Assembly (NCBI RefSeq): GCF_900184265.1
Contig: NZ_FXXA01000002.1
Span: forward strand, 1,510,918-1,574,917
DNA from: Eggerthella timonensis
GTDB taxonomy: Bacteria; Actinomycetota; Coriobacteriia; Coriobacteriales; Eggerthellaceae
DNA: 64,000 nt
Direction: 5' to 3'
Part shown: positions 23,445-42,453 of the stretch, piece by piece
Position numbering within the stretch: the stretch's first letter is position 1
Layout of the letters: every line of letters begins with the position of its first letter
Notes under the pieces: model-generated
What the model was told of the DNA's origin: nothing
Databases searched by the model: none
The model's input: only the letters and a program-made list of their open reading frames with translations
Made by a program: the position numbers and the translations under genes

Positions 23445-24746
23445 ATGCTGTTCGCGGATATCGACCTGCTTGACGAGGATCTCGACTATCGCACCCGACA
23501 GTGGGTGGGGGTGCGCGACGGCCGCATCGCCTATCTCGGCGACGAGGCGCCCGCGGGCGAAGAGGCCGCGGCGTACGGCGAGGTGTACGACGGCCGCGGC
23601 AAGCTGCTGGTGCCTGCATTCTACAACGCGCACGCGCACGCGCCCATGACGCTGTTGCGCGGCTACGCCGAGAACCTCCCCTTGCAGGCATGGCTCAACG
23701 ACAAGGTGTTTCCCTTCGAGGATCGGATCACGCCCGAGGACTGCTACTGGGGCACGACGCTCGCGTGCGCCGAGATGGCGCGCTACGGCTGCGTGAGCTT
23801 CTCGGACATGTACTACCATATGGAGGAGGGCGCGCGCGCCGCGCTCGACGCCGGCCTGAAGATGAACCTTTCCGACTCGTTGCTGGCGTTCAACGGCGAA
23901 GGCCTGGACGAGCTGCCCGTGGACGCGCAGAATCGCCGCCTGCTGCACGATTTGCAGGGAGCGGGCGACGGGCGCATCGTGGTGGATTGCAACATCCACG
24001 CCGAGTACACGTCGAATCCGCGCGCGGTGGCCGACCTTGCCGCGTTCGCACGCGAGCAGGGGCTGCGCGTGCAGGTGCACGTGTCCGAGACGCGCGCGGA
24101 GCACGAGGAGTGCCGGCAGCGCCACGGCGGCTTGACGCCCGTGCGCTACTTCGACAGCCTGGGCCTGTTCGACGCGCCCGTGACGGCGGCGCATTGCGTG
24201 TGGGTGGACGACGAGGACATCGACGTGCTGGCGGCGCGCGGGGTGTTCGTGGCGGCGAACCCCGCGTCGAACATGAAGCTGGGCAGCGGGTTCGCGCCCG
24301 TGCCGAAGATGCTCGAGCGCGGCGTCAAGGTGTGTCTCGGCACCGACGGCATGGCGTCGAACAACAACCATGACATGATGCAGGACCTGTACCTGCTGGC
24401 GCTGCTGTACAAGGGCTCGACGAACGACCCGTCCGTGGTTACGCCGAAGCAGGCGCTGGCGGCCGCCACGCGCATGGGCGCGCTGTCGCAGGGCCGCGAT
24501 GACTGCGGGTACGTGGCCATCGGGGCGAAGGCCGACCTGTGCGTGTTCGACGTGTCGGGGCCGTCGTGGGCGCCGATGACGAACCCGCTGGTGAACGTCG
24601 TGTATGCCGGCCACGGAGCCGACGTGTGCCTCACCATGTGCGACGGGCGCGTGGTGTACCGCGACGGCGCGTATCCCACGCTCGACGTGGAGCGCGCGAA
24701 GGCCGAGGTGAACGCCCGCACGCAGCGCATCGTCGGCGAGCTGTAG
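23445..24746 (+). CDS. mtaD: Amidohydrolase, SAH/MTA deaminase type
   Basis: 433 residues of the amidohydrolase superfamily. Metal ligands: HAH at 63-65 (NAHAHAPMTLLRG), His in HVSETRAEH, a later His (TAAHCVW) and Asp in CLGTDGMASNN. These match S-adenosylhomocysteine/5'-methylthioadenosine deaminases, which convert SAH to S-inosylhomocysteine; other nucleoside or triazine deaminases share the pattern. Disposal of SAH would connect with the metF-metH operon earlier in the window. The ATG at 23445 follows GGAGAAGGAGCGC. Single gene. Confidence 0.8.
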   Translation: MLFADIDLLDEDLDYRTRQWVGVRDGRIAYLGDEAPAGEEAAAYGEVYDGRGKLLVPAFYNAHAHAPMTLLRGYAENLPLQAWLNDKVFPFEDRITPEDCYWGTTLACAEMARYGCVSFSDMYYHMEEGARAALDAGLKMNLSDSLLAFNGEGLDELPVDAQNRRLLHDLQGAGDGRIVVDCNIHAEYTSNPRAVADLAAFAREQGLRVQVHVSETRAEHEECRQRHGGLTPVRYFDSLGLFDAPVTAAHCVWVDDEDIDVLAARGVFVAANPASNMKLGSGFAPVPKMLERGVKVCLGTDGMASNNNHDMMQDLYLLALLYKGSTNDPSVVTPKQALAAATRMGALSQGRDDCGYVAIGAKADLCVFDVSGPSWAPMTNPLVNVVYAGHGADVCLTMCDGRVVYRDGAYPTLDVERAKAEVNARTQRIVGEL

Positions 24747-24815: not shown

Positions 24816-24930
24816 CGAGCCGCAGGGAGCGCGAACTCCCCACGGCTCTCGGACTCGCTTCGGCGGTTCGGATTTTTAGTGTGATCCCGGTTCGTCCTCT
24901 TGGGACGACCGGGGCTTATCTTTCGGCCGC
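24816..24930 (+). ncRNA. Candidate small non-coding RNA
   Basis: The promoter above predicts a start near 24816-24817. That is exactly where a two-tier hairpin begins: GAGCCG (24817) pairs with CGGCTC (24843), and inside it GGGAG pairs with CTCCC around CGCGAA. After a T-rich single-stranded stretch (GGATTTTTAG) a second hairpin, CCCGG.CGTCC with GGACGACCGGG (about 24887-24917), is followed by CTTATCTTT and could terminate. I see no SRP, tmRNA or 6S signature. No ORF or downstream gene in the same direction is close enough for this to be a leader. Confidence 0.45.
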
Positions 24931-24950: not shown

Positions 24951-24966
24951 TGTTTCACGTGAAACA
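24951..24966. promoter_or_regulatory. parS site 1
   Basis: TGTTTCACGTGAAACA is the canonical 16-bp parS palindrome bound by the chromosome-partitioning protein ParB. It is perfect, lies in a gene-free stretch and is followed 10 bp later by a large inverted-repeat element. Confidence 0.92.
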
Positions 24967-24976
24967 TCCGTTCTGG

Positions 24977-25423
24977 CTCCCCCTTTGACGCACAACGGCC
25001 GCCCGAGCGCTTTTCCCGGGCGGGCCCAGGTCCCCGCCTCGTCCTGTCCGGCATGCGCCCGCCGCTTCGCCGTCGGCGCGAGGGGCCCGGTTCGCGGCGG
25101 TTTTCGACGGAAAAACGCCTTCGGACGCCTTTCCCGCCCGCCCCGGCGTCCGTCTTCTCCCAGGTCGCGGAGGCACCGCGGGAAGGGCTCGCGAGAAATA
25201 CTGTCGGACGGGGCCGTCCGAGGGCGTTTTTCCGTCGAAAACCGCCGCGGGCCGCGACCTCGTCCCCCCTCCTTCTCGGAACCGGCGCTGCAGCAGGGGC
25301 CGCCCCGCTCCGCCGTTTCCGGGCCCATGCGGAAAGCGCCTGTTCGGCGCATTCGTCCCGATTGTGCGCTCGAGGCATGATCGCATAGCGCCCGTCGGCG
25401 GGCGTTGTGCGTCAAAGGGGGAG
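24977..25423. repeat. 450-bp nested inverted-repeat element next to parS
   Basis: Outer arms 24977-24997 (starting CTCCCCCTTTGACGCAC) and 25403-25423 are perfect 21-bp reverse complements. Inner arms 25093-25127 and 25215-25249 match over 35 bp with one mismatch and carry the core TTTTCGACGGAAAAACGCC. The 14-bp sequence TGAAACATCCGTTC (24960-24973) before the element recurs as TGAAACATTCGTTC (25425-25438) after it. The ORFs through it are Arg/Pro-rich in all frames and look non-coding. The organisation resembles a non-autonomous transposable element or a structured repeat. Confidence 0.7.
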
Positions 25424-25552
25424 TTGAAACATTCGTTCGTTTTCGGTTTCGAGTCGAAGCATCTTCGCGTTGCGCCGATGGCACGCTGTGCCCGCGAACC
25501 GGCACGGCGCCCGCCTCTGGTACGCCCTAATCCAGCGGCCGCGCGCGCCGGC

Positions 25553-25641: not shown

Positions 25642-26484
25642 ATGCTGAGACTATCCGACGCGCGCATCGACGGGTTCATCGCCGAGGACGTGCCGTACGT
25701 CGATCTGACGTGCGCGGTGCTGGGCATCGGCGACGAGCCGGGCGAGATGGCGTACTTCACGCGCGAGGACTGCGTGCTAGCTGGCTCGAACGTGGTGCGG
25801 CGCATCATGGGCAAGCTCGGCTGCGACGTGGTGGAGGCGCGCCGCGACGGCGATCGCGTGGCGGCGGGGGAGGCGTTCTTCGTCGTGCGCGGCGCCGCGG
25901 TCGACTTGCATGCGGCGTGGAAGGTGTGCCTCAACGTGTTCGACCACCTGTCGGCCGTGGCCACGAAGACGCGGGCCATGGTTGACGCGGCGCACGCCGC
26001 GAACCCGCGCTGCGAGGTGCTGACCACGCGCAAGAGCATGCCGGGCGCCAAGGATCTGCTCACCGAGGCCGTCATGGCCGGCGGCGCGTTCCCGCATCGG
26101 CTGGGGCTGTCCGAGACGGTGCTCGTGTTCGACCATCACCTCACGTTCTTCGGCGGCTTCGACGCGTTCGTGGAGCAGCTGCCCGCCATCAAGGCCCGTT
26201 GCATCGAGAAGAAGCTGTTCGTGGAGGCAGATGCCGAGCGCGCCCGCGTGCTCGCGCGCGTCGGCGTGGACGGCATCCAGGTGGACAAGGTGCCGCCGAA
26301 TGAGCTGGCGCCGCTCGTGCGAGAGCTGCGCGAGATCGACCGGCACCTCACGCTCGTCGCTGCTGGCGGCGTGAACCCGCAGAACGCGGGCGCGTACGCG
26401 GCCACCGGCGTGGACGGGCTCGCCACGACGGCCCCCTTCGCCGCCAAGCCCCTCGATATGAGCGTGCGCATGAGCCGCTTGTAG
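25642..26484 (+). CDS. ModD/NadC-like phosphoribosyltransferase family protein
   Basis: 280 residues with the quinolinate phosphoribosyltransferase fold. The N-terminal EDVPYVDLTC, the centre LHAAWKVCLNVFDHLSAVAT and TTRKSMPGAKDLLTEAV, and GGAFPHRLGLSE closely follow the ModD branch (putative pyrophosphorylase linked to molybdate genes) rather than true NadC. No molybdate transporter lies nearby, so the reaction remains uncertain: a phosphoribosyl transfer on an aromatic acid is the safest statement. The ATG at 25642 follows GAAGGGGCGG. The palindrome upstream suggests regulation. Confidence 0.7.
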   Translation: MLRLSDARIDGFIAEDVPYVDLTCAVLGIGDEPGEMAYFTREDCVLAGSNVVRRIMGKLGCDVVEARRDGDRVAAGEAFFVVRGAAVDLHAAWKVCLNVFDHLSAVATKTRAMVDAAHAANPRCEVLTTRKSMPGAKDLLTEAVMAGGAFPHRLGLSETVLVFDHHLTFFGGFDAFVEQLPAIKARCIEKKLFVEADAERARVLARVGVDGIQVDKVPPNELAPLVRELREIDRHLTLVAAGGVNPQNAGAYAATGVDGLATTAPFAAKPLDMSVRMSRL

Positions 26485-29251: not shown

Positions 29252-29922
29252 AGTCTCCTCGCTTATAGTGGGTGGCGGCTCGAAGCCGCGTGTTTGCTTG
29301 CGATTATACGGGCTGCACGAGGCCATGCGCCTTGGGGCGGGGCCCGGCGACAGGTTCGTCACCGTTCGGTAACGTGTTGTTCGCGGGTTCTCCAAAGACG
29401 AGCGCTGCGAAGAAGCCTTGAAATCGGCGATTCGGGCAGCAGCGCGTCAGGGAAATCGCGAATGGCGGCCGTTTTCGACGGAAATACGTCTTTCGCTGGA
29501 GGCCTTCTCGTTTGCTGCGCGCTCATTTGATCCTCTGAGCAGGGACGATGCAAAAGCGACGCGCTCGCTTTCTCCCTCGGACCGGATTCGTCCTCTCCCG
29601 ATGACGGACATCCGTCGAAAACGGCCGCCATTCGCGATTTCCCTGACGCGTGACTTTGGGGCTGCGCCGCCGCGATCCTGAGCAAGCTCAGGGATCCTTC
29701 GACTCCGGCCGGCGTTGTCGCAGTGGGGCCATCAGCGGGAGGGTCGGGTCCGGGGTCGAATTCCGGCGTTGTGGACGCCGCGAGCGGCCATTTGCGATAC
29801 ACTATGGGTCAAGGTTTCAGGTACGCGTTTGAAGTTCGTTTCTGGTAAGGCCCGGTTGGTTCGCGCCTTGACGACAACACGACAACGGCGTGGGCCACGC
29901 AACAGGAAAGTTGGTGGTCAAC
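29252..29922. other. Gene-free region before EF-G2
   Basis: Contains the minus-strand promoter of the small membrane protein, the 40-bp inverted-repeat element (29443-29650), a short hairpin GATCCTGAGC/GCTCAGGGATC near 29679-29700, and a TACACT -10 box at 29798-29803 that probably serves EF-G2. I see no coding region; the frames here lack binding sites and are explained by the inverted repeat. Confidence 0.6.
29443..29650. repeat. 40-bp perfect inverted repeat element
   Basis: Left arm 29443-29482 and right arm 29611-29650 are perfect reverse complements over 40 bp. The arm starts CGCGTCAGGGAAATCGCG and ends in the core GTTTTCGACGGA. The 128-bp centre is A/T-richer and non-coding. The core links it to the elements at 310-468 and 25093-25249. 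Confidence 0.85.
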
Positions 29923-42198: not shown

Positions 42199-42214
42199 TG
42201 TTTCACGTGAAACA
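42199..42214. promoter_or_regulatory. parS site 2
   Basis: A second perfect TGTTTCACGTGAAACA. The bases after it (TTTGTTCG) resemble those after parS site 1 (TCCGTTCT), extending the similarity to TGAAACATYYGTTC. It lies between divergent operons in a gene-free region. Confidence 0.92.
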
Positions 42215-42258
42215 TTTGTTCGTGCGATTCGCGCTGCCGTTGACGCCGGGTTTGTTCG

Positions 42259-42453
42259 CGAAAACCGACCTGCGAGTCGCAAAAACCGGCGCTGTGAAGC
42301 TCGACGAGAGATCCGCGTACCCTTGGTATTTCGCGATTTGGGAAAACGCGCTCAGGTTTCGGGGCAATGGCGACTGGCGAGCGGTCGTGCACGCTTCGAT
42401 GCCTCGAAGTCGTTTCATCGCGGCGGTTTTTGCGACCGCGAGGAGCGTTTTCG
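42259..42453. repeat. Imperfect 33-bp inverted repeat pair near parS 2
   Basis: Arms 42259-42291 (starting CGAAAACCGACC, ending TCGCAAAAACCGGCG) and 42421-42453 are reverse complements at 25 of 33 positions, separated by about 130 bp. Layout and A-tract content resemble the elements near parS 1 and upstream of EF-G2, but the core is diverged. Confidence 0.6.

Follow-up and report, generated by a model that had tools for sequence, protein, structure and literature searches.

Directly beside a parS site of Eggerthella timonensis lies a gene-less structure of nested inverted repeats, followed by a direct repeat that overlaps the parS palindrome. Is this a mobile element that was inserted at parS, or does it form, together with parS, a site that organises the chromosome? 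A sequence-only reading had raised both possibilities. We addressed the question in the window, by which we mean the whole stretch of 64,000 nucleotides that was analysed (C2:1510918-1574917 of a genome of 3,916,897 bases in two contigs). Two exact parS copies are present in the window (24951-24966 and 42199-42214), where 0.04 matches at up to 3 mismatches are expected by chance, and the first is where the earlier reading had placed it. The structure itself lies between two genes, one for an amidohydrolase (23445-24746) and one whose product has quinolinate phosphoribosyltransferase domains (25642-26484). The features are listed below by window position; G001, G002 and G003 are congeners.

24951..24966, no strand: parS, exact 16-bp palindrome TGTTTCACGTGAAACA, intact after insertion, the orthologous loci of G003 and G001 having the identical 16 bp
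24964..24971, + strand: left copy of the proposed 8-bp target duplication, ACATCCGT, a probable length (any length from 6 to 14 bp suits the permutation test equally well)
24967..24973, + strand: arm TCCGTTC of the extended parS (TTCGTTC in G003), its final two bases doubling as the element tip in the preferred reading
24972..25428, + strand: IS1595-type miniature inverted-repeat element, gene-less, full copy of about 457 bp, best-supported boundaries
24972..24997, + strand: left terminal inverted repeat, TCTGGCTCCCCCTTTGACGCACAACG
25083..25127, + strand: left arm of the inner inverted repeat, with the GGCGGTTTTCGACGGAAA core common to the stand-alone hairpin repeats of the genome
25215..25259, - strand: right arm of the inner inverted repeat
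25403..25428, - strand: right terminal inverted repeat, read on the - strand as TTCAACTCCCCCTTTGACGCACAACG
25429..25436, + strand: right copy of the proposed target duplication, ACATTCGT, the same as the empty site of G003
42199..42221, + strand: second parS of the window (parS at 42199-42214) with arm TTTGTTC, without an element, conserved in G003

The outer inverted repeats (24977-25003 and 25397-25423) extend over 27 nt at 96% identity, and the first 21 positions are perfect, as had been claimed. The inner repeats, described earlier as 35 perfect base pairs, do exist, though the 35-bp stretch is 97% identical and lies inside 45 nt at 89% (25083-25127 and 25215-25259). Likewise, the proposed element of 450 bp starting 10 bp past parS is real, its boundaries now being set at 24972-25428. 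The 14-bp direct repeat said to overlap the right half of parS was found after the element, where the 14-mer TGAAACATCCGTTC (24960-24973) recurs as TGAAACATTCGTTC (25425-25438) with a 13/14 match. Other hairpins occur in the window. A stand-alone hairpin repeat of about 208 bp (29443-29650) has 48-nt arms (94%) and has the GGCSGTTTTCGACGGAAA core in common with the inner repeat of the element; a second hairpin (42259-42453), 45 bp past the second parS, has 40-nt arms at 75% and a left part that is conserved in G003. A third, GGTTCGTCC..GGGACGACC at 24880-24925 upstream of the first parS, is shared with G001, is absent from G003 and has no Rfam match, a tRNA being the sole match of the Rfam search.

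Mobility is indicated by the distribution of the element. The same genome contains three further copies at 87-90% identity, a full one at 1.846 Mb and two right-truncated ones at 0.614 Mb and 2.314 Mb. The empty site that the sequence-only reading had suggested seeking in relatives was found: the orthologous locus of G003 reads CGTACG-parS-TTCGTTCGGTTTCGG (parS-TTCGTTCGG) without an element, and that of G001 has a single parS after which the right-hand flank continues, again with no element, whilst G002 has no parS there. A DNA search of 40 relatives recovered no full copy. The terminal repeat CTCCCCCTTTGACGCACAA, at up to 2 mismatches, is found in 11 of 138 family genomes including our own, and in this family-wide search a GTTCTGA-like tip precedes the repeat in 15 of 20 places outside the own genome; the other five (G086, G090, G123, G126 and G142) were discarded for lack of such a tip. 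Two of the ten pattern matches in the own genome (2011922 and 3556629) were not counted as elements, and 2011922 had no end in a separate scan for ends. That scan covered 2.39 Mb of fetched sequence and gave 50 matches at 19/27 positions or better, overlaps between stretches counted, and 6 in the reversed sequence. Moreover, a scan of GTDB contigs for the terminal repeat gave 67 loci, all of which were checked for parS. L125 and L073 were viewed in detail, and of these two only L125, from Rubneribacter badeniensis, was recognised as such an element; its ends are the same, its inner inverted repeat is another one and a parS adjoins it directly on the left.

The family of the element can be read from its relatives. 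The search for the same ends elsewhere and near transposase genes, also proposed earlier, returned them in other genera, and in G104 two such ends, matching 24 and 25 of 27 consensus positions, flank 1.07 kb that encodes a PF12760 zinc ribbon (1.1e-5) and a PF12762 ISXO2-like domain (1.9e-16), both above the Pfam cut-offs and in two pieces of a broken frame. As these ends enclose an IS1595-type transposase, the window element is most likely a non-autonomous IS1595-type element, for which a transposase would be supplied in trans. Two PF12762 genes are present in the own genome, in two identical IS1595-type elements of about 1134 bp (L290 at 679 kb and L292 at 3339 kb). The ends of these, TCCGCTGTTAAACCA, are unlike those of the window element and no end of the window type surrounds either gene; therefore, no cognate transposase was found in the own genome, though a more diverged partner may exist. 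A MITE need not share its genome with a cognate transposase and may be orphaned. Nevertheless, it counts against the explanation we favour that the one transposase recovered with these ends has a broken frame and belongs to another genus. The 614-kb copy of the window element appears to be cut short by a shorter relative whose ends are GTTAAACCACCGTTGAC. As far as the available part of PMC12561309 goes, ISApl4, a member of the IS1595 family, resembles the elements here in three respects: a Zn-ribbon and ISXO2-like transposase, here in the full-length relative, terminal inverted repeats and a duplication compatible with 8 bp. In that same portion ISApl4 duplicates A/T-rich 8-mers at varied places, whereas the elements here prefer ACATTYGT at parS, have TCTGACTCCCCC-type terminal inverted repeats and, in the window copy, contain no gene.

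The direct repeat had been attributed to duplication of a 14-bp target by an inserted element. Duplication itself is borne out by the empty sites, the extra copies, the IS1595-type ends and a test of the flanks; the length is not. In a set of 12 elements with both ends, whose tip positions were chosen by eye after seeing the data, 8-bp flanks matched at 5.92/8 within elements and 3.89/8 between elements, and flanks of 12 bp at 8.25 within and 6.23 between; in both cases 0 of 2000 permutations reached the observed value. Therefore, since flanks agree better within than between elements, the direct repeat is read as a target duplication. All lengths from 6 to 14 bp fit this test equally, and we prefer 8 bp because IS1595-family elements are reported with 8-bp duplications (ISApl4, in the accessible part of PMC12561309). 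The duplication would then most simply be ACATCCGT/ACATTCGT. A fixed 12-bp duplication has an equal statistical fit, yet its TC and GA edge bases are element tips in most copies. The 14 bp serve as an upper bound only: other copies have right ends of the form ..GGAGTCAGAA before the duplication, so that the TGAA of the window can be the end of the element. Under the 8-bp reading this TGAA, standing before the right copy of the duplication, is the element's end, and therefore the half-parS noted on the far side, whilst present as sequence, would be partly the element's own end, with the duplication as the remainder. The duplications are imperfect, with 7/8 matches in the window and 4/12 in element G006d.

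parS is usually described as origin-proximal and as present in at most a few tens of copies. In the own genome we found 125 exact parS (0 with a reversed-pattern control), and in three congeners 109, 130 and 148. Three other genera of the family have 108, 126 and 104, two more have 39 and 48, and in the others among the 36 family genomes searched the count ranges from 0 to 26. Outside the family the largest count was 21, in 383 genomes among 396 drawn from the phylum. Canonical chromosomal parS number from one to 20 per genome in the portion of PMC10197239 available to us, and the text seen of PMC4255298 mentions parS only as origin-proximal. The likeness to canonical parS lies in the same 16-bp core and in a ParB gene within a cluster of sites, the ParB match at C2:532968-533498 being inside a cluster of 12 exact parS (529-542 kb). 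The difference is that here more than 100 copies are distributed along the entire chromosome, and most of them have a TYYGTTC arm on one side. Four more ParB-family matches are found in the own genome (C2:494953, 501638, 1411649 and 3709967).

This arm was seen in the 95 sites, out of 125, for which flanks were at hand: 58 read TGTTTCACGTGAAACA-NNYGTTC on one side (two of them on both sides), mostly as T-Y-Y-G-T-T-C-G, and none of the 12 origin-cluster sites has this arm (parS-TYYGTTC). The flank of the second parS in the window, which had been taken for the same flank as that of the element, is TTTGTTC, the general 7-nt arm of most dispersed parS of the genome, and is no trace of the same element. 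Genome-wide, the armed pattern occurs 83 times in the own genome and 58 to 95 times in the congeners, 6 to 23 times in other parS-rich genera and 0 to 2 times in genomes with at most 14 parS. By crude ORF calls, from a gene caller that is rough above all near the origin, 79/95 sites lie outside ORFs, while ORFs cover 80% of the sequence. The arm shows no bias relative to the downstream gene (14 towards, 13 away). Terminator hairpins were considered as a cause of the parS palindromes and rejected, with only some unarmed sites (e.g. at 420.9 kb and 532.7 kb) lying inside longer palindromes. A small module, in which two parS copies (degenerate in some cases) enclose a CGCAATG..TGCGATA hairpin at a spacing of about 48 bp, is repeated at C2:426158, 554092, 589922, 672448 and 885528 of the own genome, and at C2:652023 such a module has a degenerate partner.

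Do the elements prefer these sites? In searches blind to parS, 9/18 elements lie at parS, which is left intact: 5/6 of the own elements (four at an exact parS, one at a site with one mismatch) and 4/12 of those from other genera (three exact, one with one mismatch). The tips are at the same place beside parS in all nine, a position at which, by our own arithmetic, a random insertion would fall about 6 times in 100,000. Variant parS-like palindromes, GGTTCACGTGAACC and TGTTTCACGTGAACCA, adjoin elements of the same kind at G003:C1:1173103 and in G106 (L136 at 1119). We propose that the elements prefer an armed-parS target, which would be read as DNA alone or via bound ParB. The cut would be made around ACATTCGT, that is, the last three parS bases and five arm bases. 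As insertion would occur just outside the palindrome and the target would be duplicated, parS would stay intact. An intact parS would in turn render insertion harmless, which may account for the use of parS as a landing pad. It counts against this explanation that half of the elements (9/18) are away from parS.

With close to an even chance, the adjacency to parS is a by-product of a DNA target resembling AC(N4)GT, of which more than 100 armed parS would supply most of the good matches, and ParB would have no role. The elements away from parS have partly similar 8-mers as duplications, e.g. ACAAACGT and ACATTTGT, such that the target would be half of an armed parS and contact with a protein would be unnecessary. 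However, in the three homologous own copies that adjoin parS (window, 614 kb and 2.314 Mb) it is the same end that points towards parS, as it is in the Rubneribacter and G106 copies; recognition of a near-palindrome alone does not need such an orientation, though this objection is not decisive.

It is much less probable that parS belongs to the element, a mobile unit carrying a terminal parS and spreading it through the genome. The 125 exact copies would suit such a unit, as would the six own loci with parS where G003 has none and the element at 1306234-1306563, which is bordered by a complete armed parS left and right at a place where G003 has a single copy, an arrangement that a simple 8-bp duplication fails to explain. 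However, G003 and G001 have parS without an element at the window locus, parS is missing from several elements with these ends in other genera, the three own copies differ in what lies upstream of parS, and most dispersed parS have no recognisable element end adjoining them; for the window copy this reading is already unlikely. Lastly, a structured chromosome-organising site, in which nested inverted repeats and parS are selected as a single functional unit, is the least probable reading of all and unnecessary for the element itself: the inner arms are long and nearly perfect and parS with its arm is conserved between species, but three congeners lack the element at this locus, the 40 relatives gave no full match and the Rubneribacter copy combines the same ends with another inner repeat.

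Taken together, the sequence data show a multicopy element with empty sites, a target duplication, an IS1595-type relative with the same ends and repeated adjacency to parS. We consider it highly probable that the structure arose when a MITE-type element of the IS1595 family, itself devoid of genes, moved into the arm of an extended parS.

Chromosome-maintenance sites of the dif and res kinds are known targets of transposons, and the Tn5053/Tn402 'res site hunters' are multi-gene transposons aimed at resolvase sites, unlike the gene-less window element. Compared by description alone, and from part of the source, these 'hunters' (PMC7765201) share with the elements here a preference for a maintenance site. 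The nearest counterpart comes from the IS1202 family: the ISAjo2 group, according to the available sections of PMC10132070, targets pdif and dif and inserts 5 bp away from the pdif XerC site in a single orientation; in both systems a mobile element inserts a small, constant number of bases away from a maintenance site of a chromosome or plasmid, in one orientation. As described there, the ISAjo2 group differs in having another transposase family, a 5-bp duplication and a XerC/XerD site as its target rather than parS. The TnsB-like transposase of 441-457 aa typical of ISAjo2 and IS1202 was not encountered, the transposase of the full-length relative being of IS1595 type. In the open-licence literature on parS/ParB, Eggerthella and Coriobacteriia, as far as its accessible text extends, we found no report of a transposon targeting parS, nor, in that on parS, Eggerthella and Coriobacteriia, of more than 100 dispersed parS in Eggerthella.

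Are the dispersed sites themselves maintained? When regions near the origin of G001 and G003 were first compared with stretches of the own genome, hardly anything aligned, and the same G001 and G003 stretches were later compared with other own sites. For 21 own loci a counterpart in G003 could be located, which contains parS in 15 cases and lacks it in 6; these six absences indicate that gain or loss of parS also takes place within the genus. Over the 15 rows the core is identical at 239/240 positions and the arm at 70/77, the latter being lowered because in row 1088751 the G003 site is set against own site 1088130. The seven bases on the opposite side are identical at 46/77 positions and bases 8-20 outwards at 137/281, ungapped. 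Own sites 1306234, 1088130 and 1810265 were left out of the rows as second sites of a locus. That core and arm are held while the neighbouring intergenic DNA changes indicates selection, whichever protein acts there.

The larger and more unusual finding is the abundance and conservation of the extended parS in this lineage, more than the element. Tentatively, and with somewhat less than an even chance in our estimation, Eggerthella and some related genera would have more than 100 selected parS that form a network along the whole chromosome, in Eggerthella mostly armed and distinct from the origin cluster, at which ParB, possibly with an arm-reading partner, would load chromosome-wide rather than only near the origin, and an IS1595-type lineage would have specialised on this network as a safe landing place. 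In this human gut genus parS number more than 100, are spread round the chromosome and are conserved where neighbouring intergenic DNA is not. If ParB does load at all of these sites, ParB-SMC folding from one origin-proximal loading zone would not apply to this lineage.
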